Shown in pieces: positions 33,500-61,752 of a stretch of DNA of 64,000 bases; positions within the stretch are counted from its first letter, which is position 1, and the number at the start of each line of letters is the position of its first letter. The position numbers were made by a program, and so were the translations under genes. This stretch comes from OCS116 cluster bacterium AG-390-A19 (lineage in GTDB: Bacteria; Pseudomonadota; Alphaproteobacteria; MED-G09), in NCBI GenBank assembly GCA_003278145.1, contig QCGV01000001.1, positions 75,616 through 139,615 of the forward strand. Reading direction: 5' to 3'. The notes under the pieces were generated by a model, which was not told where the DNA came from, searched no databases, and saw only the letters and a list, made by a program, of their open reading frames with translations.

Positions 33500-34474
33500 G
33501 TGCAGTTAAGTAAAGATAAGTTAATAGATGCGTATACACGGATGAAAAAGATCCGAGTCTTTGAAGAAACTATGCGTGACGAATTTGCTAAAGGAACAGT
33601 ACCAGCATTTATTCATCTCTATATCGGTCAAGAGGCTATTGCATCAGGAATATGCGTTGAGTTAAATGATAATGATACAATAGCAAGCACTCACAGAGGC
33701 CATGGTCATTGCTTAGCAAAGAATTCAAATCTCGAAAGAATGACTATGGAAATTTTTTGTAGAGCTGATGGATTATGTGAGGGTAAAGGTGGTTCAATGC
33801 ACATTGCAGATCTATCGGTAGGTATGCTTGGTGCAAATGCAATTGTTGGGGCTAATGCCCCTATTGCTGTTGGAGCAGCTTTAAGGCAAAGAGTTATGGG
33901 TGAAAATTTAGTATCTGCAGCATTTATTGGTGATGGCGCTTCCAATCAAGGAGCTGTCTTTGAGGCTATGAATTTAGCTAGTGTTTTAAAACTCCCGGTT
34001 TTATTCGTCTTTGAGAATAATGGTTATGCTGAATTTACAGGTGTAGATTATCATTGTGGTGGAGGAGATATTGCAGGAAGGGCCGAGGGCTTTGGAATGC
34101 CTTCATACAAATTAGATGGCTCAGACTTCTTTGCAGTTCAAGAAGCTGCCGCTGAAGCAGTTGAAAGAGCGAGGAAAGGCGAAGGTCCAAGTGCTATAGA
34201 GTGTTATGCTAAAAGGTGGTATGGTCATTTTGAAGGAGATCCTCAACATTATAGAACAAAAGAAGAGTTGGAAACTATTAGGAAAGATAATGATCCATTA
34301 ATAATTTTTAGGCAAAAGGTAGAAGAAGCAGGCTTGGTCGAGAGTAGTGAATTGGATATAATTGATGATGATTTAACTTCTAAGGTTTTTAATGCAGTAG
34401 AAAAAGCAAAAAATAGCCCTCTTCCAAATGTAGAAGAATTAACTACCAATGTTTATGAAAAAGGGAGTTATTAA
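33500..34474 (+). CDS. 2-oxoacid/acetoin dehydrogenase E1 component, alpha subunit
   Basis: Thiamine diphosphate enzyme that decarboxylates a 2-oxo acid or cleaves acetoin. 324 residues, the short AcoA/PdhA type. The ThDP motif runs from GDGASNQG to FENN, with about 26 residues between, and SMHIADLSVGMLGANAIVGA is typical. The start is GTG with GGAGAGGG in front. It overlaps the beta-subunit gene by one base. No E2 or E3 gene follows: a TonB receptor is next. A second set with E2 lies at 49.2-52.5 kb, so the E2 may be shared. Confidence 0.92.
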   Translation: MQLSKDKLIDAYTRMKKIRVFEETMRDEFAKGTVPAFIHLYIGQEAIASGICVELNDNDTIASTHRGHGHCLAKNSNLERMTMEIFCRADGLCEGKGGSMHIADLSVGMLGANAIVGANAPIAVGAALRQRVMGENLVSAAFIGDGASNQGAVFEAMNLASVLKLPVLFVFENNGYAEFTGVDYHCGGGDIAGRAEGFGMPSYKLDGSDFFAVQEAAAEAVERARKGEGPSAIECYAKRWYGHFEGDPQHYRTKEELETIRKDNDPLIIFRQKVEEAGLVESSELDIIDDDLTSKVFNAVEKAKNSPLPNVEELTTNVYEKGSY

Positions 34475-35487
34475 TGACAGTTAAAACTTACAGAGAAGCT
34501 ATTATTGAAGCTATGATCCTTGAAATGAAACGAGATGAAAAGGTTTTTGTAATTGGTGAAGATATTTCAGGAGGTAGGGGTTGTGAAGATTTTGAAGGTG
34601 AAGCAGCTGGAGGACCTATGGGTTTAACCCAGGGACTTTGGGATGAGTTTGGGGCTAAAAGAGTTATAGATACACCAATAAGCGAGACAGCAATTATGGG
34701 TGCTGCCGCTGGAGCTGCTCTATCTGGTCTCAGACCAATAGCAGAATTAATGTTTTCAGATTTCTTTGGTGTTTGTTTTGATCAAATTTATAATCAGGCA
34801 GCAAAATTTCGTTTTATGTATGGGGATCAAGGTGCTACTCCTCTTGTGATAAGAACTATGATAGGGGCTGGTATTGGTTGCGGACCTCAACACTCTCAAT
34901 CACCTTACTCAATCTTTGCTAATATTCCTGGCCTTAAAGTTGTAACTCCTTCCAATCCATATGATGCAAAAGGTCTATTAATCTCCTCAATAAGAGATAA
35001 TGACCCCGTTATTTTTTGTGAACACAAAGCCCTTTTAGGTATGGATGGTGAGGTACCAGATGAATCTTATGAAGTTCCTCTGGGGAAGGGGAAGATTTTA
35101 AAAGAAGGCAATGATATTTCAATTGTTGCTATTGGACAAATGGTAGGTGTTGTTCAAAACTGTATTAAAAGTTTAGAAGAAAAAGGCATATCAGCTGAAA
35201 TCATAGACCCCAGATCATTATCACCATTTGATGATGAGATGGTTTATGACAGTGTTGAAAAAACTGGGCGACTCCTTGTTTTGGATGAATCAAATCCCGT
35301 TTGTTCTTTTGGTTCTTGGATAACTAGTATGGTTTCGGAAGAAGTATTTTCATCTCTTAAAGCGCCTACTAAAGTTTTAACGCCTCCGCATTGTCCAGTT
35401 CCAGCTGCTCCAAATTTAGAAGCTGCGTATTTACCAGATGTGGAAACAATTATTAGTGCTTCTGAGAACTTAAAAAACTATAGTTAA
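34474..35487 (+). CDS. 2-oxoacid/acetoin dehydrogenase E1 component, beta subunit
   Basis: 337 residues, partner of the upstream alpha subunit; the ATG overlaps its TAA. Transketolase-like pyrimidine domain with KRVIDTPISETAIMGAAAGAAL, AELMFSDFFGVCFDQI and GAGIGCGPQHSQSPYSIFANIPGLKVVTPSNP; the C-terminal domain has the HCPVPAAPNLEAAYLP ending. Relative to the paralogue at 50.5 kb the core motifs match and the N-terminal insert (SGGRGCEDFEGEAAG versus VGGTGSPGGPEAIGG) differs, so the substrates may differ. The last gene of the catabolic run, followed by a 228-base gap with palindromes. Confidence 0.92.
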   Translation: MTVKTYREAIIEAMILEMKRDEKVFVIGEDISGGRGCEDFEGEAAGGPMGLTQGLWDEFGAKRVIDTPISETAIMGAAAGAALSGLRPIAELMFSDFFGVCFDQIYNQAAKFRFMYGDQGATPLVIRTMIGAGIGCGPQHSQSPYSIFANIPGLKVVTPSNPYDAKGLLISSIRDNDPVIFCEHKALLGMDGEVPDESYEVPLGKGKILKEGNDISIVAIGQMVGVVQNCIKSLEEKGISAEIIDPRSLSPFDDEMVYDSVEKTGRLLVLDESNPVCSFGSWITSMVSEEVFSSLKAPTKVLTPPHCPVPAAPNLEAAYLPDVETIISASENLKNYS

Positions 35488-35619
35488 TTTTACCTCAAGA
35501 TATAAAAATTCATTAGTGAAGTTTAAAAAAAATTTCCACATATAATTATATATGAGTTATTTTCATATTAAAATTATTTTGATTTTTAAATACCTTATAT
35601 TTTGTTATACAATTATATA

Positions 35620-35636
35620 AATAAACAGTGTTTATT
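35620..35636. promoter_or_regulatory. 17-bp palindromic operator 1 upstream of TonB receptor
   Basis: AATAAACA-G-TGTTTATT is a perfect palindrome around base 35628. A -10-like TATAAA (35616-35621) touches its left edge, where bound repressor would block transcription. It has the same arms as the second site 52 bases downstream; TetR-family operators often look like this, and a tetR gene is 3 kb downstream with a related AACAnTGTT site. Confidence 0.72.
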
Positions 35637-35671
35637 AACTTGAGTTTTTTTTAATTATGTGTTTGAATTTT

Positions 35672-35688
35672 AATAAACATTGTTTATT
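35672..35688. promoter_or_regulatory. 17-bp palindromic operator 2 upstream of TonB receptor
   Basis: AATAAACA-T-TGTTTATT has arms identical to operator 1 and differs only in the central base. The centres are 52 bases apart, close to five helical turns, so two repressor dimers could sit on the same DNA face. It ends 28 bases before the TTG start. Confidence 0.72.
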
Positions 35689-35699
35689 TAATTCAAAAA

Positions 35700-35708
35700 G
35701 GGGGGGGG
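35700..35708 (+). promoter_or_regulatory. G9 homopolymer serving as ribosome binding site
   Basis: Nine consecutive G in very AT-rich DNA, ending 7 bases before the TTG start at 35716; no other Shine-Dalgarno sequence is present. A run of this length can slip in replication, so the spacing or strength of the ribosome site might vary between cells. The consensus length could also be a sequencing artefact. Confidence 0.6.
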
Positions 35709-35715
35709 TAATTAA

Positions 35716-37926
35716 TTGAAAAAAATTTACAAAAATCTTTTTTTATTTTTATTTTCATTTTTCTTAATACTATCAACAAGTCAGTATTCTTTTTCTCAAG
35801 AAACCGACGCTTCATTAGGGCAAATTGAAGAAATTCTAGTAACTGCTCAAAGGAGATCTGAAAATATTGATGATGTTCCAATAGCAATTACCGTTGCAGA
35901 TAAAGAAGCACTAAAAAATGCTGGAATTGCAGATATTCGTGATCTAGGAAGTATTGTTGCTGGTTTAACTTTTGCAGGCCAAGGTGGAATTGCTGTTCCA
36001 TCAATTAGAGGAATGCAATCAAGGCTGGGAAGTGCTGGTAATGAGCAGCCTACAGCAATTTATTTAGATGGAGTCTATCAACCTAATCAGTTAGTTAATG
36101 TTTTAGAGCTTGCCGATGTAGAGCAAATAGAGGTTCTTAGAGGTCCTCAAGGTACTTTATTTGGAAGAAATAATACAGGCGGAGTAATACTTGTAAATAC
36201 AAAAAAACCTCAGTACGAGACTGAAGGAAATTTATCTCTAGATTATGGTTATTATACAGGTAGTGATCAAGACTCAGGAGACATGACTATTAAGGGTTAT
36301 CTTACGGGGGCACTTATCGAAAATACACTTGCATACAGTTTTTCAGGTTATTATAGGGATGTTGAGGGCTTTCTTACTAATATGAATAATGGTGGACGAA
36401 GTGGTAAACTTGAGAAATATCATTTGCGTGGTAAATTATTATGGGAACCTTCTCCAAACCTAAGTGCGCTTTTATCTGTTACAATAGGCCATGCTGATGA
36501 TTTAATGTCATGGGCAACACAATCTTTTCAAGGTAATGGTGCTTCTGGTTATTATGATGATGGAATTACATCTTCAAAACCATGGTATGTTGCTAGTGAG
36601 CTAAAAGACGGAAGTAATCCCCAAGAGCTTGATCAGGAACATATTTCTTTAATAGTTGAATATGATATTGATGGTTACGGTACATTAAGGTCAACAACCT
36701 CTTATTCGAATGATGATGTTGATTTTGTTGTTGATTTAGATACAGGAACATCTGCGTCATGTAAGGCTGCTTTTGTATGCCTTGATTTTTGGCAAGATTA
36801 TCCGAGCACTACTATACAGCAGGAATTTTTATTTTCATCGGAGCAATCAGGAAAATTTAGTTATGTTGTAGGCGCGTATTATTATGATACTGAAGCTGTA
36901 TTTGGTTTTAATGTTAATCCTGTTATTGTTGATGGCTATGCTGATAGAACTAGGTCAGGATTTAATTTTATAGGTCATTCAACTGATTTTATAGAATCTA
37001 GAGCAATATTTGGAGAAATTAATTATGATATTTCTGATCAACTTCGTCTTATAGCGGGTGTACGTTATACAGAAGAAGAAAAATATGGTGCGGGAACATT
37101 GAATCCAAGGTATCCAGCAGAGGGCGCAATAGAAGATGATGCCTGGACTCCTCGCGTAGCTCTTCATTATGACATAGATGAGGAAACTAGTATTTACGGA
37201 TCTATTTCAAAAGGTTTTAAAAGCAGTGTTTTAAATAATGCAACAGTCCAGAATGAATTTGGGACAAAACCTGAGTATGTAACTAATCTCGAGTTTGGTT
37301 TAAAGAGGAGTACTATAGATTATCGTCTGGCGATTGCTGTATTTGGGATGAAATACAAAGATCAACAGGCACAAGTATGGGACGGTCAAGCCGCAATCTT
37401 AAGTAACGCAGATGAGTCTGATATTTACGGGATTGAACTAGAAGGAAATTATAATGTAAACGAAAACCTTCAAGTTTATGGTACTTTTTCTTATTTGAAA
37501 TCTGAATATGGAAATTATAGCTCTACAGCTTATCAGTTACCGATGACAGCTGCAGGATTTGCATCAAATGAAGTTATTAATTTAGATGGTAGCCAACTTA
37601 TAATTGCACCTGAATATACTGGAAGTTTAGGTTTTAATTATCAAAGGGTAATTTCATCAGGCCTATTGGAGTTAAATGGTAATTTTTACTACAGCGATGA
37701 ATTCTGGTTTGATTTCTTAGAGAGGGTTAACCCTGGAAGTTATAATACATTGGCTGCTTCTGTTTCATTAACACCTAATTTTAATGAAAACATTAAGTTA
37801 TCTTTATTTGGTAGAAATTTAACTAATGAAGAATATTTTGCTAGCTCTTTACTCGGACCTAGCTCAGATGCACCTGTTTATATGCCTCCCCGGATGATTG
37901 GAATTTCTATAGACTATGATTTTTAA
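35716..37926 (+). CDS. TonB-dependent outer-membrane receptor
   Basis: 736 residues: a signal peptide (LFLFLFSFFLILSTSQYSFS), a TonB box region (EEILVTAQRRSENIDDVP), the plug with VEQIEVLRGPQGTLFGRNNTGGV near residue 140, and a 22-strand barrel ending in an aromatic residue (SIDYDF). Imports a large or scarce substrate using TonB energy. The N-terminal EEILVTAQRR form is common in receptors linked to catabolic loci rather than siderophores. Start is TTG behind a G9 tract. Two identical palindromes upstream suggest ligand-responsive control. It neighbours a cupin, a TetR gene and a Rieske oxygenase. Confidence 0.94.
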   Translation: MKKIYKNLFLFLFSFFLILSTSQYSFSQETDASLGQIEEILVTAQRRSENIDDVPIAITVADKEALKNAGIADIRDLGSIVAGLTFAGQGGIAVPSIRGMQSRLGSAGNEQPTAIYLDGVYQPNQLVNVLELADVEQIEVLRGPQGTLFGRNNTGGVILVNTKKPQYETEGNLSLDYGYYTGSDQDSGDMTIKGYLTGALIENTLAYSFSGYYRDVEGFLTNMNNGGRSGKLEKYHLRGKLLWEPSPNLSALLSVTIGHADDLMSWATQSFQGNGASGYYDDGITSSKPWYVASELKDGSNPQELDQEHISLIVEYDIDGYGTLRSTTSYSNDDVDFVVDLDTGTSASCKAAFVCLDFWQDYPSTTIQQEFLFSSEQSGKFSYVVGAYYYDTEAVFGFNVNPVIVDGYADRTRSGFNFIGHSTDFIESRAIFGEINYDISDQLRLIAGVRYTEEEKYGAGTLNPRYPAEGAIEDDAWTPRVALHYDIDEETSIYGSISKGFKSSVLNNATVQNEFGTKPEYVTNLEFGLKRSTIDYRLAIAVFGMKYKDQQAQVWDGQAAILSNADESDIYGIELEGNYNVNENLQVYGTFSYLKSEYGNYSSTAYQLPMTAAGFASNEVINLDGSQLIIAPEYTGSLGFNYQRVISSGLLELNGNFYYSDEFWFDFLERVNPGSYNTLAASVSLTPNFNENIKLSLFGRNLTNEEYFASSLLGPSSDAPVYMPPRMIGISIDYDF

Positions 37927-37964
37927 ATAGAATTTTTGATTTTATATAAAAAGGTGTAAAACTA

Positions 37965-37990
37965 TGGGTAAGCCCTTCTGGGCTTGCCCA
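37965..37990 (+). other. RNA hairpin between receptor and cupin genes
   Basis: TGGGTAAGCCC / GGGCTTGCCCA form an 11-base stem with one G-U pair and a TTCT tetraloop. No T run follows (ACAAATAAAGG), so it is a poor intrinsic terminator. It may lower read-through, block exonucleases and protect receptor mRNA. It ends 23 bases before the cupin start. Confidence 0.6.
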
Positions 37991-38013
37991 ACAAATAAAG
38001 GTGAGTAGTAATT

Positions 38014-38478
38014 ATGAGTGTTAATATAAAAAGAATTAATGAAGCAGAAATTATTTCTGATGCTGGTGATATAATTAAAGATACCAATAAGATGGAATGG
38101 ATTGAGGTTGGCGGCGGATCTAGGTTTAAAGTTCTTAAGGCCTGTTTAAATACTGGTAACTGGACACTTTATGTTCAAATGGACCCCGGTGCTGCCTTTC
38201 AAGCCCATAGACACCAAGGAAGTGGAGAATTCTTTATTACTAAAGGTGAATTGATATATGATATAGGCTCAGCACCTGCAGGAACTTATGGCTTTGAACC
38301 AGTTCATGCTGAGCATTATGATGCTAAATGCGAGGTTCAAACAGAAATGTTTTTTAGTGGTCAGGGTTCAGTAACTTATTATGATAAAGACAAGAACATT
38401 GATTGGATTTTAGACTCTGAATGGCTCCATAAACTTGCCTTAGGTGAGGTAGAGCTCGATGTTAGCCCAAAGGATTAA
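38014..38478 (+). CDS. Cupin protein, 2,4'-dihydroxyacetophenone dioxygenase-like
   Basis: 154-residue single cupin. Metal-ligand motif QAHRHQGSGEFFITKGEL (G-x-H-x-H with downstream Glu) near residue 67, and a second His in HAEHYDAKC near residue 97. Related proteins include the ChrR-type anti-sigma cupins and 2,4'-dihydroxyacetophenone dioxygenase, which cleaves a C-C bond of an aromatic ketone. AAAGGTGAG is the ribosome site. It lies between a TonB receptor and a TetR gene; catalytic or ligand-binding role cannot be told apart. Confidence 0.78.
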   Translation: MSVNIKRINEAEIISDAGDIIKDTNKMEWIEVGGGSRFKVLKACLNTGNWTLYVQMDPGAAFQAHRHQGSGEFFITKGELIYDIGSAPAGTYGFEPVHAEHYDAKCEVQTEMFFSGQGSVTYYDKDKNIDWILDSEWLHKLALGEVELDVSPKD

Positions 38479-38493
38479 TTTTTTATATAATTT

Positions 38494-38506
38494 TTAACAC
38501 TGTTAA
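38494..38506. promoter_or_regulatory. Candidate TetR operator TTAACA-C-TGTTAA
   Basis: A perfect 13-bp palindrome in the gap before the TetR gene. Its core AACA-n-TGTT equals the core of the two palindromes upstream of the TonB receptor at 35.7 kb. Placement 57 bases before the TTG start of the regulator suggests autoregulation. Confidence 0.55.
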
Positions 38507-38562
38507 TTTAATAAATCTCAAGGTATAGACTATTGATTTATATTAACGGAGATTAAGAAATT

Positions 38563-39174
38563 TTGAGTGTAAATAATTCAAAAAAATGGAAAAGAAGAAA
38601 AAAGGATAGAGCTGAAGAAATTTTAAATTCTGCATATAAAATTTTAAGTAAAGAGGGTAGATCCGGTCTTTCAACTAGACGAATTGCAAAAGATGCAGGT
38701 GTTTCGGTGGCTACAATATTTAAATATTTTAATGATAAGGATGATTTGATTGAGAAGTGTTATAATAGATTAGGTTTTGACTTTATTGATCAATTCCAAA
38801 AAGATTTGGATGGGATTGAAAATCTTCGTGATTGCTTAATTCATCTTGCGCGAACACATTTTGTAAGATTAAAACGCAATCAGAATTTATGGGATATTTT
38901 TACTCATGATATCAATAAGAGACTGAAAAAGAACTCAGAGATATATAAATTAAAATCAACTTATGAAGATTTAGTAAAAAAATTAATTTTAAAAGCAAAG
39001 AAAAATGGTGAAATTGAAATAGAAGCTAAAGACTCAGCTATTATCAATATTTATCATGGAGCAATTGAATATATTGCAATTAAATACAGGATGTATGGAG
39101 AAGATTTTGAAATTGATGAAACTGTAAATGATATTGTAAATATTATTTTTAAAGCATATGGCAAAAAGACTTAA
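38563..39174 (+). CDS. TetR-family transcriptional regulator
   Basis: 203 residues. The N-terminal HTH has RRIAKDAGVSVATIFKYFNDKDDLIEKCYNR (about residues 44-75, quoted in part: RIAKDAGVSVATIFKYF), the TetR recognition pattern; the C-terminal helical domain would bind a ligand. Start is TTG, 9 to 14 bases after GGAG. It is 5 bases from a Rieske oxygenase, in the same direction. AACAnTGTT palindromes before its own gene and the TonB receptor make those likely targets. The basic patch KKWKRRKKDR precedes the HTH. Confidence 0.9.
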   Translation: MSVNNSKKWKRRKKDRAEEILNSAYKILSKEGRSGLSTRRIAKDAGVSVATIFKYFNDKDDLIEKCYNRLGFDFIDQFQKDLDGIENLRDCLIHLARTHFVRLKRNQNLWDIFTHDINKRLKKNSEIYKLKSTYEDLVKKLILKAKKNGEIEIEAKDSAIINIYHGAIEYIAIKYRMYGEDFEIDETVNDIVNIIFKAYGKKT

Positions 39175-39179
39175 AGCTA

Positions 39180-40550
39180 ATGAAAATGAAAAATAGAGCT
39201 GAATTTAATTTTAAAAAAGGTTGGAAAAATAACCCTGAAGGAAAAGGAGTAGAGGCAAAAGAACCTTTTAAGGACTTTGGTACGGAAAGATTTAATCCTG
39301 AAAGATATTACTCCAATGAGTTTATGAAGCTAGAATGGGATAATGTTTGGACAAAGAAATGGCTTTTAGTTTGTAATGTTAATGATGTTTCTAATGTTGG
39401 AGATTTTTATAATTTTAAAATAGGTAAAGAGTCTATAATTGTTGTTCGATCAAGTGAAAAAAATATTAATGCATTTTACAATGTCTGTCCGCATAGAGGA
39501 AATAGATTAATTAATGAAGATTTTGGTTTTATAGAAAAAATTGGTTGTTCATTTCATAGCTGGGTATTTGATTTAAATGGTGAAAATGAACAAGTTCTAG
39601 ATAAAGAAACTTTTAGAAAAGAGGTTTTGGAAAATGATCTAAATTTATCAAAAGTAAAATGTGAAATCGAGTGCGGTTTTGTTTGGATTACAATGAATGA
39701 CAAAGCCAGGCCAGTAAGAGATTATTTGGGCCCAGTTGCAGATTACTTAGATAACTACAAGATAAATGAAATGAAGGTTGTTAGACATGTAAATTCATTA
39801 TGGAAGGCAAATTGGAAAACAGGTTTAGAAGCTTTTTATGAAACTTATCATCTTTCAACTGTTCATCCAGAAACTCAAACAATGATGGAAGATTATCATG
39901 TTCAAATTGATAATTGGGATAATGGTATGAATAGGATGATAGTTCCTTTTATAATTCCAAGCATTAGATATAAGGATCGTTCTACTATAAATGAAAGTAC
40001 AAGTTTTCTTCTTGGAGATGTAGGTATATCTTCTGAAGAATTTAATGGTAATATCCAAGAGGCAAAAAAATTAATTCAAAATAAAAAAAGAGAGATTTCT
40101 AAGAAATTCAATTTAGGTTATGAAAGATATACTGATGCGGAGTTAACAGATAGCTTTGATTATGGTATTTTTCCAAATATACAAATTGGATGTCATCCCG
40201 AGGGTGTTTTTCTTTTTAAGTTTTTACCTCATCCAACTGACCCTGAAAAATTTTATCTTGATACTACAATAAATTATAGAGTGGTTGAAGGTGAAGAATA
40301 TAGCGTCCCTGCATGGATGGGACTACCAGAGGATACTGATAAGTCCGGAAAAACTAGACCTGAAATAGTTTATTATGATGAGAATGAAAAACCTGATTTA
40401 GGTTTAATTCTTGAGCAAGACTCTGAATTAATTCCGTATGTTCAATCTGGTGTAAGATCAAGAGGTTTTAGGGGTGCATTATGGAGCGAGCAGGAACTTA
40501 GAATTAGACATTTTCATTATGAATTAAATAATTCAATTAAATCCAATTAA
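39180..40550 (+). CDS. Rieske non-haem iron oxygenase, alpha subunit (paralogue A)
   Basis: 456 residues. Rieske centre C103-x-H105 (CPHRG) and C123-x2-H126 (CSFHSW). Catalytic iron ligands in GLEAFYETYHLSTVHPET. It is a paralogue of the oxygenase at 55.2 kb: shared blocks include EFMKLEWD-WTK-W, the DYLGP and Y--ETYH--THP regions, and a lysine/glutamate-rich helix after residue 280. About 50 residues longer than the oxygenase at 31.3 kb. No ferredoxin or reductase is adjacent. It is translated right after the TetR gene, so may be its target. Confidence 0.92.
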   Translation: MKMKNRAEFNFKKGWKNNPEGKGVEAKEPFKDFGTERFNPERYYSNEFMKLEWDNVWTKKWLLVCNVNDVSNVGDFYNFKIGKESIIVVRSSEKNINAFYNVCPHRGNRLINEDFGFIEKIGCSFHSWVFDLNGENEQVLDKETFRKEVLENDLNLSKVKCEIECGFVWITMNDKARPVRDYLGPVADYLDNYKINEMKVVRHVNSLWKANWKTGLEAFYETYHLSTVHPETQTMMEDYHVQIDNWDNGMNRMIVPFIIPSIRYKDRSTINESTSFLLGDVGISSEEFNGNIQEAKKLIQNKKREISKKFNLGYERYTDAELTDSFDYGIFPNIQIGCHPEGVFLFKFLPHPTDPEKFYLDTTINYRVVEGEEYSVPAWMGLPEDTDKSGKTRPEIVYYDENEKPDLGLILEQDSELIPYVQSGVRSRGFRGALWSEQELRIRHFHYELNNSIKSN

Positions 40551-40605
40551 TAATTTTAAGTTAATTTTAATTATCTCTTTCTCTGATATTTCTTTATTTT
40601 TTATC

Positions 40606-42459
40606 TTAATTAATTTCAAAGCTAATTAATACATTTCCAGGCATGTTACCTCCATATTGGTAACCAGAGTTTATGTATAAGTTGTTACCGCTAATTACTG
40701 GACCTAAGCCTTCAATAGTACCGCCATATGCTTTGATATTAGAAAATTCTGAAAAATCTTTATTTGTATCAAATTCCCAGAGCAGATTACCTGTTTTACT
40801 ATCAAGTATGTAAAGCCATCCATCCATGCCTGCACCTACAATAATATCATTTGTCGATGTTAAGGCTGCCGAAATACCTCTATCACAAGAACTTAACCCA
40901 TTGCATCTATCTTTTGGCTCAAATCGCCAGTTAATATCCCCGTTTATTGCATTTAATGAATAAATACCTGGCGTAGCTGGTCCAGGAAATTTATTAATGT
41001 AATTTTTATCTGCAATTGGTGCATAGATATTATCATCATCTACTGTCATACCCCAATGAACACCACCTGCAAAACCACCTCTTCCAATCTTTCTTGACCA
41101 TAAAAGTTTACCTTTTTGATCTGGATCTAATGCATACACGTGACCTGATTTTCTTCCCCCAAAGAGAATATTTCTGCCTTCACTTGTTTTCATTAAGATT
41201 GTTGAAGCACCAAAATCCCAATCAGGACCGTCTTCCTTTGGACAACCTGATTTAGGTGAAATAAAGCAGCCCATATTCCATGCGTCACCACTTTGAGCTT
41301 GAAATGACCAAACAATTCCACCTTTTGATTTATCAATTGCAAGTATTGCATCGCTTGTATCTGCGGCTGGCGAAGTATATGACTCACCAGTCCCTACATA
41401 AACAAGATTTCTTTCATCATCAATAGTGGGTGAGTTCCAAACTGGCACACCTGATGGAGCTAATATTTTCTTACCGGACTCATTATAATCTCCAAGATGT
41501 TTTGCAGGAACTGGTATTGAGTATGTTGTCCATAACTCTTCACCAGTGATTGCATCCAATGCCATAACACCTCCTCTAAATGTACAGCATTCATAATCTG
41601 GATTTGCTCCATCGGCCCATTCTCTTGAAGATAAAGGCACATAAATAACCTTATCATATACTCTAACAGAGCCTGTGAGTATAACTCTTGGGTGATATCT
41701 CAATGATTTTGTCCATATATTCTGACCTGTTAGAGCATCATATTTATAGACATTTCCTTCATAATCTCCTGCATAAATAAAATAATTATTATTTATTTTT
41801 TCTATTACAGGAGCAGATCTTATTTCTCCTTGTGTTTTGGATTTCCATCTTACGCATCCAGTTTCTCTATCAAGAGCATAAAGATTTGAATTTTGACCGC
41901 CAATATAAATTACATTTCCAGAAACTGAAGGTTGTGATCTTGATCTTGTAGCTCCTGGGAATGCAAATACCCACTTAATTTCGATATTTTTCGCATTTTT
42001 ACTATTTATATTTGACTTTGCTCTTCTTGTATTTTGCTTATCATAACCCCATTGGTTATATGAGTTTTTTTCATCAAATTTAATCTTAGTATTTGAAATT
42101 TCTTTTTTACAAAAGTCAGGTTCCTGTATATTTGATGATACACTTCCACCCGAAATAAATTCTGCGAGTTTTATTTTTTGATCTTTGCTTAAGTGTGAAG
42201 CTTGAGATGACATTACACCATCAAGTGTTTCTAAAATATAGTCAGCAGACATTGCCGAAAAAGTGGTTGAATGCGGCGCTCTTGGTACACCCCCACTATG
42301 ACAACTTACACAAGACTCATTAAAAATTTTTGCAGAAGCTTTATCAGAAGCACCTGCAAATAAATCAGCATTTTTTAATTCCTCATTAGGTGAACTACTT
42401 GCAAATAAATTACTATTAATAATAAAAATTGAAACTAATAGAATATAAAAATTTTTCAT
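40606..42459 (-). CDS. Quinohaemoprotein dehydrogenase, PVA-dehydrogenase-like (cytochrome c + PQQ propeller)
   Basis: Periplasmic quinohaemoprotein of 617 residues with a signal peptide (FYILLVSIFIINSNLFA). The N-terminal haem domain has C50-VS-C53-H54 and a methionine-rich stretch around residues 65-90. From residue 140 an eight-bladed PQQ-type propeller is shown by tryptophan repeats (GCVRWKSKTQGEIRSAPV, TGQNIWTKSL, GEELWTTYS, GKLLWSRKIG, NLLWEFD). Domain order cytochrome-then-PQQ is that of polyvinyl-alcohol dehydrogenase; classic alcohol dehydrogenases have the reverse. Substrate may be another secondary alcohol polymer or oligomer. Converges with the Rieske gene. Confidence 0.88.
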   Translation of the reverse strand: MKNFYILLVSIFIINSNLFASSSPNEELKNADLFAGASDKASAKIFNESCVSCHSGGVPRAPHSTTFSAMSADYILETLDGVMSSQASHLSKDQKIKLAEFISGGSVSSNIQEPDFCKKEISNTKIKFDEKNSYNQWGYDKQNTRRAKSNINSKNAKNIEIKWVFAFPGATRSRSQPSVSGNVIYIGGQNSNLYALDRETGCVRWKSKTQGEIRSAPVIEKINNNYFIYAGDYEGNVYKYDALTGQNIWTKSLRYHPRVILTGSVRVYDKVIYVPLSSREWADGANPDYECCTFRGGVMALDAITGEELWTTYSIPVPAKHLGDYNESGKKILAPSGVPVWNSPTIDDERNLVYVGTGESYTSPAADTSDAILAIDKSKGGIVWSFQAQSGDAWNMGCFISPKSGCPKEDGPDWDFGASTILMKTSEGRNILFGGRKSGHVYALDPDQKGKLLWSRKIGRGGFAGGVHWGMTVDDDNIYAPIADKNYINKFPGPATPGIYSLNAINGDINWRFEPKDRCNGLSSCDRGISAALTSTNDIIVGAGMDGWLYILDSKTGNLLWEFDTNKDFSEFSNIKAYGGTIEGLGPVISGNNLYINSGYQYGGNMPGNVLISFEIN

Positions 42460-42463
42460 TTTT

Positions 42464-43105
42464 TTATTTTGATACCCCTGAAAGTAAATTATTAACTAAA
42501 TCAGAAGAGACTTTTCCAATATTTATATTCTTATGAGCAAGAACCTTTCTAAGTCCAATATGTTCTAGGCCACCAAGAAATTGATCTCTAAAAATGTCAA
42601 AATTAACAGTATTATTAATTTCTCCATTTGTAATCCCTCGTTCAAAAACTTTTTTTACTAAGTTAGAGTACCTTCTGTTCATCGCATGTATTGGTGAACC
42701 AACATAATTATCCCATCTGAGATGTTTAAACCAGATAATGTGTAATTTAGGTGCTGTTTTCATGCCTTCTAAATATCTAATAGCAATAAATAGAAGACTT
42801 GAGTGTAAATCAGAAATATCTTTAATATCTGTTTCCATTTTTTCTACAAATGGTTGCGCCCAATCAACATAAACTTGATTTAAAAGATCATTTTTATCAT
42901 TGAAATATTTATATAAAGTTGCTTCAGATACGCCAGCGGCCTTTGATATTTTCATCATTGATAGGCCTTTTATTCCTTTATCTTCCAATATTTTTTTTGC
43001 TGCTTCAATGATTTCGGGAGGTCTAGCATCTTTTCGTCGTCTCCATGATATATTCTGCATTTTATCAATGCTTATAACGCTATCTATTGTTTCCCCATTC
43101 TTCAT
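42464..43105 (-). CDS. TetR-family transcriptional regulator
   Basis: 213 residues. HTH with KISKAAGVSEATLYKYFNDKNDLLNQVY (about residues 50-77; core SKAAGVSEATLYKYF). It resembles the regulator at 38.6 kb in the HTH and the basic N-terminus (WRRRKDARP), but the ligand domains differ. It lies 4 bases upstream of the quinohaemoprotein gene on the same strand, so it probably controls that gene, and is divergent from a hot-dog pair. I saw no convincing palindrome in the 86-base divergent gap. Confidence 0.9.
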   Translation of the reverse strand: MKNGETIDSVISIDKMQNISWRRRKDARPPEIIEAAKKILEDKGIKGLSMMKISKAAGVSEATLYKYFNDKNDLLNQVYVDWAQPFVEKMETDIKDISDLHSSLLFIAIRYLEGMKTAPKLHIIWFKHLRWDNYVGSPIHAMNRRYSNLVKKVFERGITNGEINNTVNFDIFRDQFLGGLEHIGLRKVLAHKNINIGKVSSDLVNNLLSGVSK

Positions 43106-43191
43106 TATTTTATCTACTTTTAAATTATGTAATTACTATTATTAGATTTTAATTTATTATACATTTTATTTTATTGGAAGGTAAATTAAGT

Positions 43192-43695
43192 TTGGAAAAA
43201 TCAAAAAAAATTTACGAAAAATGGCAATATTTAACCAAAAATTCAAAAGACTTATCTTTGGATAGTTATTATGGTTTAGAATTTCCCGGTGGTGAATTTT
43301 TTATCGATAAAAACTCAAATCTTTTAGTCAATAACTCCACTGGAAATAAATTAAGTGGTGAAAATATAAACAGAATTATTCAAGCTCACCCCATATATTT
43401 TATGATCATTACCTTAAGGGGATCGGGAGCATCAATTCAAGATATTTTTGATTTATTAAATTATGATACAAAAAATGGTCCTATGTTAGGGCAATGTAAT
43501 ATGACCTTTAACACTCAATTAAAGGTAGATTGTAAATATTTTGTAAAAGGGCAAATTAATTCCCTAATTAAAAAAAATAGTAAAAAACTTGGTGAAATAA
43601 AAATTTTAGATTTCTCTTTAACTTTATTCGATGTTGATTCTAAAAATATTGGCAATGTTAACTATGTCTGGATACTACCCTTGGGAAAAAAATAA
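43192..43695 (+). CDS. Probable FAS1-like hot-dog dehydratase domain protein
   Basis: About 167 residues, weakly recognisable. The second half (NMTFNTQLKVDCKYFVKGQI, then long beta strands ILDFSLTLFDVDSKN, NVNYVWILP) reads as a hot-dog fold similar to FAS1-type dehydratase N-terminal halves. It overlaps by one base a MaoC-like gene, the usual two-gene layout of a double-hot-dog hydratase. I chose TTG at 43192: GGAAGGT at 43176-43182 precedes it by 9 bases, whereas an earlier TTG at 43174 lies in front of that site. No catalytic residues assigned. Confidence 0.6.
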   Translation: MEKSKKIYEKWQYLTKNSKDLSLDSYYGLEFPGGEFFIDKNSNLLVNNSTGNKLSGENINRIIQAHPIYFMIITLRGSGASIQDIFDLLNYDTKNGPMLGQCNMTFNTQLKVDCKYFVKGQINSLIKKNSKKLGEIKILDFSLTLFDVDSKNIGNVNYVWILPLGKK

Positions 43696-44099
43696 TGAAA
43701 TATAAAATAGGCGATACTTTAGAAAATTGGAGTTTTTCAGTTCTTCAAGAGAATATGAATTTATGGGCTGAAATTCTTAATGATCCCAATCCTATACACC
43801 TAGATGTGAATTCAGTTAAATCAATTGGATTGGGTGAGAAAACTATAAATCAAGGGCATGCAAATATTGCCTATATAATTAATGCAATAGATCAGAATTT
43901 CCCTGATTCAGAGATTATAAAGTTAAATAATAAAATGACTGACTCTATAGTTGAGGGTGATCAAGTAAATGTATCAGGCTATATTGAAAATATATCAACT
44001 AAAAATGATTCAACTATTATAACTTGCCGTCTTAAGCTAAATGTTGGGCAGGAAAAAGTTTCTGTAATTTCCGAAGCAGATATTTTAATTAATAATTAA
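43695..44099 (+). CDS. MaoC-like hot-dog hydratase
   Basis: 134 residues, one domain: KIGDTLENWSFSVLQENMNLWAEILNDPNPIHLDVNSVKSIGLG is the MaoC start with the D-PNPIH active-site motif (D-x(4)-H). The ATG overlaps the previous stop, so the two proteins are likely to form a hetero-oligomer. Enoyl-CoA or hydroxyacyl-thioester hydration is expected. Its stop overlaps that of the convergent ABM gene by 3 bases. Confidence 0.82.
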   Translation: MKYKIGDTLENWSFSVLQENMNLWAEILNDPNPIHLDVNSVKSIGLGEKTINQGHANIAYIINAIDQNFPDSEIIKLNNKMTDSIVEGDQVNVSGYIENISTKNDSTIITCRLKLNVGQEKVSVISEADILINN

Positions 44100-44512
44100 T
44101 AAACATTTCTAAGTTTTAACCACCAATCTTGAACTTCTGCAGCATGGCTTTCCCCATACTCTTTTGCTAAATCAGAAGCATCTGAAGGTATTTCCTCCAT
44201 TTTTGTAATACCAACAGGTGCAGCATCATCAATAGGGTCAAGCCATTCAAGATCAATACTCTCAATAACACCATCATATTGAGCCCCTGCCTCTTCATGG
44301 TGATCACTTATTTGATGCTTGAGTAAAAAATCTAAGTAGGTTGGATACACTAGAAGAGTGTAATATGAATTCTTCTCTCTTCCTCGATAATATTCATATC
44401 TTATTATACAATCTTCTTTAGCATGCGATTGCTTGTATAATTCCTTGGATAACTCTTCAAATTTTTTTTCTTGTCCATCAACAATTTTGATGTGTGCTAA
44501 TAATGATGACAT
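44096..44512 (-). CDS. Antibiotic-biosynthesis-monooxygenase (ABM) domain protein
   Basis: 138 residues with a ferredoxin-like ABM fold: LLAHIKIVDGQEKKFEELSKELYKQSHAKEDCIIRYEYYRG begins the domain, then a longer C-terminal tail. Members include quinol monooxygenases and small oxidoreductases for reactive aromatic products; others are non-enzymatic. It is separated by 24 bases from the MAPEG gene on the same strand. No special residue lets me choose among functions. Confidence 0.72.
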   Translation of the reverse strand: MSSLLAHIKIVDGQEKKFEELSKELYKQSHAKEDCIIRYEYYRGREKNSYYTLLVYPTYLDFLLKHQISDHHEEAGAQYDGVIESIDLEWLDPIDDAAPVGITKMEEIPSDASDLAKEYGESHAAEVQDWWLKLRNVY

Positions 44513-44536
44513 TTTTACTCCTTATAGATTATAATT

Positions 44537-44965
44537 TTATACTAAATTAATAGCTTCTCTAAATATCATAGTTGCTAAAGCAACCCAGCTTAAAATAAAC
44601 AATGAAAATCTTATCCAGACCAAGTTAAGAGTTGCCTGAAAAATTGAATGTATTATTCGAATTATTACGTAAAACCATGCACAATACAGATGTATTATAT
44701 CTGTATGCTCAAGTCCCCAAATAACAAAACTAATTGCATAAAATATTGTTGGTTGCTCAAATAAATGGTTATAGTTATCAGCTACTCTTTCCACCTTGCT
44801 AGGAAATATACCGCCTATAGAAGATGGATGCGAAAATTTCTGAACATCAATACCATCTTGTTCTAATTTTTTTGCAGCTGGTAAACGAGTTGCATACATC
44901 CATATCATCATAAAAAAGGATAATAAGCACATTACAATTACTGGCTGAAATATAAGATTATTCAT
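44537..44965 (-). CDS. MAPEG-family membrane protein
   Basis: About 142 residues with four hydrophobic helices (near 5-25, 65-85, 90-110, 118-138). The signature VERVADNYNHLFEQPTIFYA and RIIHSIFQATLN match MAPEG (membrane-associated eicosanoid/glutathione metabolism), a family with glutathione transferase activity in some members. I use the ATG at 44965, since GGAGG (44973-44977 region) precedes it by 6 bases and would otherwise lie in the gene. It may conjugate or handle lipophilic electrophiles produced by the oxygenases. Confidence 0.8.
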   Translation of the reverse strand: MNNLIFQPVIVMCLLSFFMMIWMYATRLPAAKKLEQDGIDVQKFSHPSSIGGIFPSKVERVADNYNHLFEQPTIFYAISFVIWGLEHTDIIHLYCAWFYVIIRIIHSIFQATLNLVWIRFSLFILSWVALATMIFREAINLV

Positions 44966-45051
44966 TAGGCCCTCCATTTATAAATATTTGCAACAAACAC
45001 TTCTTTTTGCAATAATTAATTTGATTATAATTTTTTAATTAGGGGGAAAAA

Positions 45052-45522
45052 ATGCCAATTAATGGAATGCATCACGCTGCAATATCAACGCCAAATATTG
45101 AACGCTTAATGAATTTTTATAAAGAAAATTTTAATTGTAAAGACATAGATAGCAGAAGTCAGTGGGATAAGGGTGCTGATGAGATTGATCAAGTTTTAGG
45201 TTTGAAGGGTAGCTCTGCAAAACAAGGTTTTCTTAGTTGCGGAAATGTTATGATTGAATTTTTTGAATATTCATCTCCTGAGCCAAAGGCTATGCAGGAA
45301 AATAGACCTGTTAATAATCATGGCCATACTCATGTTTGTTTTGATGTTACAAATATTGATGAGGTTTATAATGATTTAGTATCCAAAGGAGTAAAGTTTC
45401 ATTGTCCACCAAAAGATTTTGGGTCAGTAAAAGCAACCTATGGTAGAGATATAGATGGAAATGTTTTTGAAATTCAAGAAATTATTGCACCTGATCATCC
45501 AGCAAAAGTTTTTAAAGATTAA
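45052..45522 (+). CDS. VOC-superfamily (glyoxalase/dioxygenase-like) protein
   Basis: 156 residues, two beta-alpha-beta modules. The first begins GMHHAAISTPNIERLMNFYKENF, and the second NHGHTHVCFDVTNIDEVYNDL ends with RDIDGNVFEIQEI. Metal ligands His7-8 and Glu (FEIQEI) are in place. Fits epimerase, lyase or dioxygenase families alike. GGGGG is the ribosome site. It is followed 6 bases later by a SnoaL-like protein. Confidence 0.85.
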   Translation: MPINGMHHAAISTPNIERLMNFYKENFNCKDIDSRSQWDKGADEIDQVLGLKGSSAKQGFLSCGNVMIEFFEYSSPEPKAMQENRPVNNHGHTHVCFDVTNIDEVYNDLVSKGVKFHCPPKDFGSVKATYGRDIDGNVFEIQEIIAPDHPAKVFKD

Positions 45523-45528
45523 TTTGTT

Positions 45529-45918
45529 ATGTCTTTAATAAGTCAAAATGAATTACATTCATTATTACAAAATATTTATTTTGATAATATAGACTCTGTA
45601 AATTCTAAAGGTGCATCTAAGGCTATGCATGAAAATGTAGAATGGATACATACTCAAGTTTGGGAACATGATGGTCATGATGCTTCTAATATTGATATTT
45701 TAAGAGGAAGAAAAAGTGTAGAGGATTTTCTTGAGGGTAGAGTTTATGAAATTCAAAAAGAAGGAATTACACATAGGGTTGATAAAGTTTTAACAGATGG
45801 AAAATCAGGGTCATTTCTTGCAAATGTAGTAGGCAAGGATGGTACCTTGAAACCTTTTTTTGGCTGGGTGGAAATAGAGGATAAAAAAATAATTTTGTAT
45901 AAGGTTATCCCTATATAA
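45529..45918 (+). CDS. SnoaL/NTF2-like protein
   Basis: 129 residues, one cone-shaped alpha+beta barrel (NTF2-like). Segments: SKGASKAMHENVEWIHTQVWEHDGHDASNIDILRGRKSVEDFL, then antiparallel strands (SGSFLANVVGKDGT, PFFGWVEIEDKKIILYKVIP). Some members are isomerases, dehydratases or ring-hydroxylating beta subunits; the position of a His-Asp pair cannot be verified. It converges on the acyl-CoA synthetase with one base between. Confidence 0.7.
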   Translation: MSLISQNELHSLLQNIYFDNIDSVNSKGASKAMHENVEWIHTQVWEHDGHDASNIDILRGRKSVEDFLEGRVYEIQKEGITHRVDKVLTDGKSGSFLANVVGKDGTLKPFFGWVEIEDKKIILYKVIPI

Positions 45919-45919
45919 A

Positions 45920-47506
45920 TTATCCAAATATTTTTTCTCCAAGATCTAAGTTTTTTAATTTGAATTTTTGTACCTTTGTTGACGACATTGGCCATTCATC
46001 TACAAAGACAATATACCTTGGGATTTTAAAGTTTGATATTTGCCCTTTACAAAAGTCTATAAGCTCTTCTTTTGATATTTCTGTGCCAGGTTTTTTCTCT
46101 ATAAAAACTGCTGGTACTTCACCCAAATGATCATCATCAACACCAACAACTTGGCTAATTAATATTTTTTCATGACTATCAAAATATGCTTCAATTTCTA
46201 AAGCTGCAACGTTTTCTCCTCCAACTTTTAACATATCCTTTATTCTTCCATGAAAACGGATGTAACCATCATTTGTTAATGAACCTATATCACCAGTTGA
46301 GAACCAACCATCATCTGATAAGGCATTTTTTGTTGCTTCTTTATCATTTAAGTAACCAGAGAAAACATGTGGTCCTTTAATCTCGATAAGACCTTTCTCT
46401 TCGTTATTCATAACTTCATTGGTTTCAGGATCTAGTATCCTTATTTCCACATCTGGCCAAGGCTTACCACAAGTCGTTAATCTATGTTCAAGAGCGTCAT
46501 CAGGTGAACCAAAAGAAGTTACTCCTCCCACCTCTGTTAAGCCATAGGCCGAAACTTGTGTAGCTTGAGGAACTTTATTTTGAAACGCTCTTAGAGTTTC
46601 AATTGGCGCAACATTGTTAATAATTCTCAATTTACTGAGATTTTCAGGTGTAAAGTCATCATGATTTGACAATGCTACCATCACAGCTGGAAATGCTGGA
46701 AAGGCTATCGATACATCTTTTTCTATTAAAACCTTAATTGCGGCATCTGGATTAAAGTGAATTGTAGAGAGAAAAGTGGACTTTGATATTGAACATCCAA
46801 TAAAAGGTAAAATTGAGGACATATGAAACATTGGGAGAGGATCCCAAAAAACATCTTCATCGTTCATTTTCCATCTATCGACCATGGAATTTGCTACATG
46901 CAAAACATTTCTATGACTTAATGGGCATCCTTTTGGATTTGATGTTGTTCCAGATGTATACATTATGAAAGCAGGATCATCTTCTGATCCAGTTGCTTCT
47001 TCATTCAATGATTCGTCTACAAAGATTGATTCAAATTCTTTAAAGTCTTTAAATCTATTATCTTTAGAACCACCTATTATATAAACATCAGTTAGTTCCT
47101 CAGGTCGACCCTCTGTTGAGTCATAGACAGAACTTATAATTTCTGAAAAATTTGTTACCTCATCTGATTGTGAGCTAGTAAACAAAATTTTGCATTTACT
47201 ATCATGAAGAACATAGTTTAGTTCTTTCGCTTTATATCTTGCATTAATATTTACTGGAACAAAACCTGCATACATTGATGCATACATTAATAATAAATAT
47301 TCGATTGAATTGAATAGTAATATACCAACTCTATCACCTTTATTTAAATTTAATTTCTTTAATTTTTTTGCATATGAGGTAACAAGAATCGAAAATTGAT
47401 TAAAATTTAAACTGACATCATCAACAGTTAAACATTCTTTATTGGCTATTTCTTCAGGAAACTTAACAGCAAAATCAGCAATATTATTTATAATTTCTTT
47501 ATTCAT
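45920..47506 (-). CDS. AMP-forming acyl-CoA synthetase
   Basis: 528 residues. Motifs: IMYTSGTTSNPKGCPLSHRNV (adenylate P-loop), SAYGLTEVGG, DGWFSTGDIGSLTNDGY and the C-terminal lysine area MSSTKVQKFKLKN (SSTKVQK: the expected catalytic Lys is followed by Val-Gln rather than Ile-Leu). It lies head to head with another acyl-CoA synthetase at 47.6 kb. Substrate unknown; related to FadD13/CaiC-like ligases. Confidence 0.92.
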   Translation of the reverse strand: MNKEIINNIADFAVKFPEEIANKECLTVDDVSLNFNQFSILVTSYAKKLKKLNLNKGDRVGILLFNSIEYLLLMYASMYAGFVPVNINARYKAKELNYVLHDSKCKILFTSSQSDEVTNFSEIISSVYDSTEGRPEELTDVYIIGGSKDNRFKDFKEFESIFVDESLNEEATGSEDDPAFIMYTSGTTSNPKGCPLSHRNVLHVANSMVDRWKMNDEDVFWDPLPMFHMSSILPFIGCSISKSTFLSTIHFNPDAAIKVLIEKDVSIAFPAFPAVMVALSNHDDFTPENLSKLRIINNVAPIETLRAFQNKVPQATQVSAYGLTEVGGVTSFGSPDDALEHRLTTCGKPWPDVEIRILDPETNEVMNNEEKGLIEIKGPHVFSGYLNDKEATKNALSDDGWFSTGDIGSLTNDGYIRFHGRIKDMLKVGGENVAALEIEAYFDSHEKILISQVVGVDDDHLGEVPAVFIEKKPGTEISKEELIDFCKGQISNFKIPRYIVFVDEWPMSSTKVQKFKLKNLDLGEKIFG

Positions 47507-47576
47507 TTAAGCTAACACTTTTTTTAATTTATAATTTTATCTAATAAATTCTTATAATTTATAGATTAAACTTTGT

Positions 47577-47606
47577 TTGTTTGCTATTAAAAAGCTAGCT
47601 TATTAT
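47577..47606 (+). promoter_or_regulatory. Candidate sigma-70 promoter of the plus-strand acyl-CoA synthetase
   Basis: TTGTTT (47577-47582) and TATTAT (47601-47606) are 18 bases apart, in the 124-base divergent gap. The -35 match is poor (3 of 6), the -10 good (5 of 6). Confidence 0.3.
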
Positions 47607-47630
47607 TGGTTTAAGGGATAGGAAAAAATT

Positions 47631-49190
47631 ATGATTAATATTGGGTTGATTACTGCTAAACAGGCTAAGTTAAGACCAAATGCTTGGGCTGTTTACGATC
47701 AATCCTCAAAAAAAAGGATCACTTTTCTAGAACTTGATGAACTAGTAAAAAAAATCGCCAATGGCCTTATGGATCTTGGTTTAGAAAAAGGAGATAGAGT
47801 CTCCATACTTTCACAAAATACTATAGAATTTTTAGCACTTTTTTTTGCATGTGGAAGAGTAGGTTTAGTTGCGCATGCCTTAAATTGGAGATTGGGCTCA
47901 GATGAGTTGTTGCAAATTATAGAAAATGGCCAACCTAAAGTTATTATTACACAGGGGCAATTTTCAGAAACTACAAGAGATCTTCAAAGAAAAATAAATT
48001 TTATCGATCATTGGCTTGAATATGGTTCTGATAGTAATTCTTCTTTTGATGAATTAATTGCTAAGGCATCATCCAATGAACCAATTGTACCTTCGAGTAT
48101 TGGAGATGAAGATCCTTTCTTTATTTTATATACTGGTGGAACAACCGGTATATCAAAGGGCGCTCTTCATACGCATAGGTCGGCATATTTTGGTATGTTA
48201 AATCAAACTGTAGCAGAGAGGATAGTTCCATCCGATGTTTATATGCTTACTGGTCAAATGTTTCATATACCTGTTTTGCTTGCAATGAATTACACCTCTC
48301 ATGGATGTCCAATAGTTTTGATGAATTTTGATGCCGAACTCGCTCTAAACTTAATTCAAGAGGAAAAGGTGTCGGGATTTCTTGGTATTACTACAATGCT
48401 AAATTGGATGTTAGCAGTAGAAGGTTTTGATAATTATGATTTATCTAGTTTGCGATGCGTTCAATATGGAGGCGGCCCAATGCCTACCAGAGTAATAGAA
48501 GAAGTACTTCAAAAATTACCTGGAGGAATTATTCAGGGTTACGGTCAAACTGAGGGAACCACTATGACGTTTTTGTCTCAAGAAGACCATGTTAATGCTA
48601 TTAACGGTATTAACCCAGAAAGGTTAAAATCTTGTGGAAGAGCAGGTTATGTAACTTCGGTTCTGGTTGTTGATCCTGACGGTAAACCTGTTCCAAATGA
48701 TAACAAAACTCCTGGTGAAATTATCGTTAAATCTGATGCAAATATGTTGGGATATTATCGTCAAAAAGATTTAACAGATAAGTGTATTAAAGATGGTTGG
48801 ATGTGGACGGGTGATATTGCTACATGGGATGAGGAAGAATATATCTTTATTAAAGATAGGGCTAAAGATATGATCATTTCAGGCGGTGAAAATATATACT
48901 CCGTTCAAGTAGAGGAGGCTGTTTCCAAGCATGAAGCTGTTCTTGAAAGTGCAGTTTTTGGGATACCTGATGATGAATGGGGTGAGTCCGTCATGGCTTA
49001 TGTAGTTTTAAAACCAGGCATGAACGCGACTGAAAAAGATATTATTGATACAGCAAAAGAAAATCTTGCCTCATACCAAAAGCCTAGGGCTGTAAAATTT
49101 ATAGATGCTCTTCCAAAGGCTCCTACAGGAAAAATTTTAAAAAGAGAGCTTAGAGATCCTTATTGGGAAGACCAAGAGAATAAAATATAA
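47631..49190 (+). CDS. AMP-forming acyl-CoA synthetase
   Basis: 519 residues. Motifs: FILYTGGTTGISKGALHTH (P-loop with Gly in place of the first Ser), GYGQTEGTTM, GWMWTGDIATWDEEEY, and a canonical PKAPTGKILKRELRD lysine. The ribosome site AGGGATAGG precedes the ATG. It is divergent from the ligase at 45.9 kb and unlike it in the C-terminal lysine region; the two probably activate different acids. It is followed by the convergent E2 gene of a 2-oxoacid dehydrogenase complex. Confidence 0.92.
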   Translation: MINIGLITAKQAKLRPNAWAVYDQSSKKRITFLELDELVKKIANGLMDLGLEKGDRVSILSQNTIEFLALFFACGRVGLVAHALNWRLGSDELLQIIENGQPKVIITQGQFSETTRDLQRKINFIDHWLEYGSDSNSSFDELIAKASSNEPIVPSSIGDEDPFFILYTGGTTGISKGALHTHRSAYFGMLNQTVAERIVPSDVYMLTGQMFHIPVLLAMNYTSHGCPIVLMNFDAELALNLIQEEKVSGFLGITTMLNWMLAVEGFDNYDLSSLRCVQYGGGPMPTRVIEEVLQKLPGGIIQGYGQTEGTTMTFLSQEDHVNAINGINPERLKSCGRAGYVTSVLVVDPDGKPVPNDNKTPGEIIVKSDANMLGYYRQKDLTDKCIKDGWMWTGDIATWDEEEYIFIKDRAKDMIISGGENIYSVQVEEAVSKHEAVLESAVFGIPDDEWGESVMAYVVLKPGMNATEKDIIDTAKENLASYQKPRAVKFIDALPKAPTGKILKRELRDPYWEDQENKI

Positions 49191-49204
49191 TTTTGATCTA
49201 AATA

Positions 49205-61725: not shown

Positions 61726-61752
61726 AAAAGGGCGCTTTAAGCGCCCTTTTTT
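61726..61752 (+). terminator. Intrinsic terminator after TonB receptor 2
   Basis: A 10-base stem (AAAAGGGCGC / GCGCCCTTTT) with a TTTAA loop, followed by further T for six in a row. The A run before and T run after make it bidirectional. It starts 27 bases after the receptor stop and separates it from the DUF3604 gene. Confidence 0.93.

Follow-up and report, generated by a model that had tools for sequence, protein, structure and literature searches.

Judging from the systems described so far, tandem palindromic operators combined with autoregulation are typical of the TetR family. In tetO, two 15-bp operators have 11 bp between them, and PA3973 is an autoregulated TetR-family repressor with tandem operators (PMC9736018). 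A further point of comparison is offered by PheR of Sphingobium SHPJ-2, a repressor that acts locally on an operon for aromatic ring hydroxylation, with derepression by substrate, and that also affects TonB-dependent outer-membrane functions (PMC13273656).

The locus described here lies within a window of 64,000 nucleotides (the whole stretch of DNA that was analyzed) and contains three palindromes with a common AACAnTGTT core, namely O1 and O2, which stand in tandem upstream of a TonB receptor gene, and O3, which stands upstream of the gene for a TetR-family protein, T1 (Table 1). On the evidence of the sequence, we regard it as rather probable that these palindromes are the operators of T1 and that the whole constitutes a self-regulated accessory cassette. 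The arrangement resembles TetR/tetO and PA3973 in that the regulator is encoded beside its targets, the palindromes measure ~13–17 bp, and two sites lie at one promoter and one at the regulator's own gene. It differs from both in that the tandem pair precedes the TonB receptor and the single site precedes the regulator, and from tetO in having centers 52 bp apart and the core AACAnTGTT instead of TCTATCATTGATAGG. With PheR the locus has in common a local repressor (proposed in the case of T1), aromatic ring-hydroxylation genes, and TonB-dependent functions, but PheR is an IclR-family protein that recognizes GCAACG, and its TonB effect is a broader downstream effect (PMC13273656).

T1 scores 45.4 bits against a cut-off of 24 for PF00440, the TetR helix-turn-helix, and 29.1 bits against a cut-off of 21 for PF08359 (TetR_C_4), the C-terminal ligand/dimer domain. 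A single-sequence fold of the protein contains helices only, at low confidence (pLDDT 46), and is too poor for structure search. The TetR_C_4 type of C-terminal domain is also that of Bacillus FadR, an acyl-CoA-responsive member of the TetR family that is among T1's best solved relatives, and acyl-CoA enzymes are encoded around T1. The best NCBIfam model for T1 is that of Bacillus FadR as well (NF053878), but T1 falls far below the equivalog cut-off, and we did not file it as FadR because it reaches 64.4 bits against a cut-off of 200. The operator of Bacillus FadR differs from the palindromes described here, and acyl-CoA as the effector of T1 is only a lead suggested by this analogy.

In gene content, the catabolic clusters on the sphingomonad plasmids Croceicoccus pCME4A9I and Sphingobium RAC03 pBSY17_1 resemble the locus and its surroundings through a cupin (43–45% identity), E1 alpha/beta, SDR, Rieske, and TonB receptor genes, and also, in one or other of the two clusters, through VOC, PQQ protein, and TetR genes. 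These clusters differ in their receptor and TetR lineages and in their gene order, and they have no AACAnTGTT operator. A TetR gene and a TonB receptor gene are divergent in a homologous catabolic cluster from a sphingomonad plasmid, and in the Croceicoccus cluster the region between the TetR and TonB genes contains no comparable palindrome. A match to T1 on Novosphingobium plasmid pSA1 was set aside as a T2-like protein (T2 being the second TetR-family regulator of Table 1) from a related catabolic cluster. The surroundings of the locus form a catabolic supercluster (window positions 33500–50479) with E1 alpha/beta, Rieske, PQQ protein, MaoC, VOC, and acyl-CoA ligase genes, and this gene set partly recurs on the Croceicoccus pCME4A9I, Sphingobium RAC03, and Novosphingobium pSA1 plasmids.

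Table 1. Features of the palindrome locus and its neighborhood, in window positions
Feature	Position	Strand	Evidence or remark
Insertion with O1–O3 and the genes for receptor, cupin, T1, and Rieske oxygenase	35488–40605		Empty site in 8 congeners
Palindrome 1, AATAAACAGTGTTTATT, proposed TetR operator O1	35620–35636		Exact 17-bp pattern in the genome here and at O2 only
Palindrome 2, AATAAACATTGTTTATT, proposed operator O2	35672–35688		Also center of a longer imperfect inverted repeat
G9 tract at receptor Shine-Dalgarno position, directly behind O2	35700–35708	+	Sole G/C run of at least 8 in the genome
TonB-dependent receptor, TTG start	35716–37926	+	Pfam Plug 7.6e-18, barrel 5.2e-39
G+C-rich hairpin, receptor-cupin gap	37965–37991	+	-22 kcal/mol, z = -5.6, no U run
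ChrR-type cupin (Cupin_7) protein	38014–38478	+	Pfam 2e-31
Palindrome 3, TTAACACTGTTAA, proposed autoregulatory operator O3	38494–38506		Letter check and genome consensus search
TetR-family regulator T1, TTG start, proposed repressor	38563–39174	+	TetR_N 6.8e-12, TetR_C_4 1.3e-6
Rieske-type ring-hydroxylating oxygenase alpha subunit	39180–40550	+	Pfam Rieske 2.8e-15, Ring_hydroxyl_A 2e-21
T2, second TetR-family regulator, located beyond the island	42464–43105	-	Orthologs 52–96% in 8 congeners

The preliminary description had claimed two 17-bp palindromes with identical arms and a related one of 13 bp, and a check letter by letter confirmed both the coordinates and the symmetry, with perfect palindromes centered at 35628 (O1) and 35680 (O2). 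The distance between these centers corresponds to 4.95 turns at 10.5 bp per turn, about 17 degrees short of full alignment, which bears out the same-face geometry proposed for the receptor pair. From the end of the palindrome to the TTG start of the gene behind it, the distance is 27 bp for O2 and 79 bp for O1 (receptor) and 56 bp for O3 (T1). O2 is additionally flanked by an outer inverted repeat, TTTGAATT...AATTCAAA (~35662–35697), which gives a 36-bp imperfect dyad that O1 does not have. With O1 and O2, O3 has the 9-bp core alone in common, the next base pair being different, and it is the weakest link, with the least evidence of the three sites. Promoter-like hexamers near the palindromes were not more frequent than in shuffles. 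Taken as a set, the sites are real and well delimited, and they are probably functional.

All three palindromes belong to a 5.1-kb insertion, or island, flanked on the left by a 2-oxoacid dehydrogenase E1-beta gene (34474–35487) and on the right by a PQQ-repeat gene on the opposite strand (40606–42459). In 8 congeners these flanking genes adjoin and converge, with stop codons ~5–12 bp apart and an otherwise matching gene order, and in the closest congener the flanking proteins are 96–99% identical; against these 8 congeners, the insertion was seen in one genome only. No integrase or transposase, as would mark a mobile element, was found among the ORFs of at least 90 aa. Clear terminal repeats or a target-site duplication were likewise not found at the junctions, which have only AT-rich words in common, and a 9-bp AT-rich word, TTAATTTTA, lies near both ends of the insertion. 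The assembly is a draft of 29 contigs that is 83% complete, and misassembly at the island is possible but unlikely because a single 402-kb contig contains the two flanks, and their order is conserved. The best reading of the sequence would be a horizontally gained cassette for substrate uptake and oxidation that brought its own TetR-family regulator, and the island genes are part of the catabolic repertoire of the lineage and of sphingomonad plasmids, in a combination seen here only.

Within the island, the receptor scores above the cut-offs for both the plug (PF07715) and the beta-barrel (PF00593) of TonB-dependent receptors. No relatives of it at E <= 1e-60 were found in the order, and the nearest relatives found have 35–36% identity, in another genus (two genomes), and ~32% on sphingomonad plasmids. 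The cupin, whose PDB relatives include the acetylacetone-cleaving enzyme 3bal, has relatives (78%) in three congeners, where they lie elsewhere in the genome, and for the Rieske protein four genomes from other genera contain relatives at 63–64%. The T1 and Rieske genes are separated by 5 bp and are very probably cotranscribed. Between receptor and cupin lies the hairpin GGGUAAGCCC-UUCU-GGGCUUGCCC, a single occurrence among the fetched loci, which could set the receptor/cupin ratio via processing or stability.

Across the 1.37-Mb genome, the TWAACANTGTTWA consensus was found 4 times against 1.7 expected, these being O1, O2, O3, and one copy within carB. The genome-wide scan for the motif that the preliminary description had proposed thus yielded a single further 13-bp match and not many copies in non-promoter places. 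Looser matches were rejected as extra regulon members, given that up to three mismatches returned 79 sites against 81 in a reversed control, which is noise, and most of the best two-mismatch sites lie within ORFs. Because the matches with up to three mismatches are at background, no wider regulon is readable from the genome. The 13-bp consensus was also counted in 17 further genomes of the order, which have 0–4 copies each, a number comparable to or below the reversed control, and the copies are never clustered; 14 of the 15 consensus sites inspected in these relatives are intragenic. Among the 384 other genomes sampled from the class, none has the tandem pattern (two TAAACANTGTTTA, 25–50 bp apart). 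It was found at equal spacing in one AT-rich IMG/VR viral contig without any of the island genes, an occurrence that we dismissed as coincidence, the contig encoding nothing related. Tandem palindromes were also discarded as a general trait of this genome's TonB receptors, as none was found at the other receptor genes, most of which have a readable upstream region. Searches of the order, the sampled class, a genome-contig collection, IMG/VR, and plasmids gave distant relatives only and no ortholog of either T1 or the receptor, so that the sites have no phylogenetic footprint. The idea of a small regulon made up of the receptor, cupin, TetR, and Rieske genes holds in that these four genes coincide exactly with the 5.1-kb insertion and that the motif is confined there, which suggests that the boundary of the regulon is the island; the membership of the cupin is less certain because the strong hairpin separates it from the receptor. 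The preliminary description did not mention the island, the G9 tract, the outer repeat around O2, or this hairpin.

Under control by T1, dimers of the protein on the tandem O1/O2 sites, aligned on one side of the helix in the promoter region of the receptor, would turn the receptor off and probably the cupin too, and one T1 dimer at O3 would limit T1 itself together with the Rieske oxygenase predicted to be cotranscribed with it. With its tandem site, the receptor would be held off more tightly than the regulator. A substrate of the cassette, or a compound produced by the surrounding Rieske/CoA-ester pathway, would upon entering the cell bind T1 and take it off the DNA, and this release would switch on uptake and oxidation jointly. 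Binding and repression by T1, the effector, and the operon structure are what we infer here from the layout of genes and sites.

How far could the pattern be a coincidence of two AT-rich palindromes and an unrelated third, with no common binding protein? The window has a GC content of 34% and the region upstream of the receptor one of 17.5%, odd palindromes with 8-bp arms are expected ~3 times per 64 kb and were seen 4 times, and a lone palindrome of such length is unremarkable in AT-rich DNA; the unrelated viral contig also shows that the tandem pattern can arise at equal spacing. We nonetheless consider coincidence very improbable, for under an AT-rich model with the dinucleotide content of the 228-bp gap before the receptor gene, two palindromes whose arms are identical have P = 5e-5 in that gap. 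The strongest evidence against chance is the genome-wide counts, in which the exact 17-bp pattern was found 2 times against 0.006 expected. Three consensus sites inside 5.1 kb give a Poisson P of ~4e-8, a surprise that is overstated to the extent that the pattern was picked after seeing the sites, and each of the three lies in an intergenic stretch ahead of a gene of one block.

If the sites are bound by a common protein, they might be the operators of another regulator, either T2 or an unlinked protein, the island having been captured with, or having acquired, the sites of a resident regulator. T2 is encoded ~4 kb from T1 and is its paralog (31% identity, with the same two Pfam domains), and paralogs can have common operators. 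We judge such an origin rather unlikely, and T2 is disfavored as the reader of the palindromes, since its orthologs are conserved in 8 congeners that have no such palindrome, with no TWAACANTGTTWA within the surrounding 11–20 kb and with the 13-bp consensus at background in those genomes. One would moreover expect a resident regulator to have one or more sites beyond the island, and none was found in a promoter there. T1, on the other hand, was found only together with the island and the palindromes, and because of this co-occurrence, in one genome, and of the position of O3 before its gene, it is the best candidate reader, so that the TetR protein at 38563, which the preliminary description had proposed to assay for binding, is favored over T2 by the congener comparison. 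A different proposal is that the palindromes act as RNA, forming hairpins close to the ribosome-binding site in the 5' leader of the receptor transcript and controlling translation or stability. Together with the outer repeat TTTGAATT/AATTCAAA, O2 could form a stem of -8.4 kcal/mol immediately before the G9 Shine-Dalgarno, and mutual pairing of O1 and O2 reaches -19.3 kcal/mol (z = -2.8), but such pairing of two identical palindromes is an automatic outcome of the sequence. O1 alone folds no better than shuffles (z 0.1) and O2 slightly better (z -1.3), no Rfam family was matched, and action as RNA accounts neither for O3 nor for the restriction of the motif to the island; we therefore hold it to be quite improbable and keep operator sites for T1 as the preferred reading.

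The G9 tract at the receptor start may add to this control. From composition, 0.2–1.3 G/C runs of at least 8 are expected in the 1.37-Mb genome and one was found; its existence is unsurprising and its location striking. Many TonB receptor genes of the genome have GGGGAG or GGGGG at the Shine-Dalgarno place, and G9 may be an expanded version of these. Homopolymer tracts at expression-determining places can slip, and G9, as a long homopolymer at such a place, has the first feature looked for in a phase-variable locus and may be a slippage-prone site of phase variation. Poly-G tracts in the cupin region of congeners were rejected as its counterparts, as they lie within coding sequence, and no paper was found in the literature that links poly-G tracts, Shine-Dalgarno sites, and phase variation to TonB-dependent receptors. 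A double control of the receptor, with a tandem operator for T1 and a G9 tract making translation phase-variable, seems doubtful to us. Were both layers present, a streamlined bacterium would keep a new uptake system substrate-switched and at the same time hedged by random on/off variation. Outer-membrane receptors are common phage entry points.

The locus provides a concrete operator-regulator prediction for a cassette of TonB receptor and Rieske oxygenase, and it presents what would be a self-regulated catabolic cassette as a clean insertion whose empty site is found in 8 close relatives. It may illustrate how streamlined bacteria acquire substrate-uptake modules along with their own switch. 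The regulator-operator layout is ordinary, but it is visible unusually cleanly in this block.

The TonB receptor barrel family has 24 matches in the 1.37-Mb draft genome, which is high for its size. Upstream of another TonB receptor gene (genome C1:338061-342329), a perfect palindrome with arms of 10, GCATAATTTGTCAAATTATGC, lies ~58 bp before the start and is probably the operator of another regulator. A further palindrome, AAAAGGGCGCTTTAAGCGCCCTTTT, lies at window positions 61726–61750, just 3' of the TonB receptor gene at 59450–61699, and is probably a transcription terminator.
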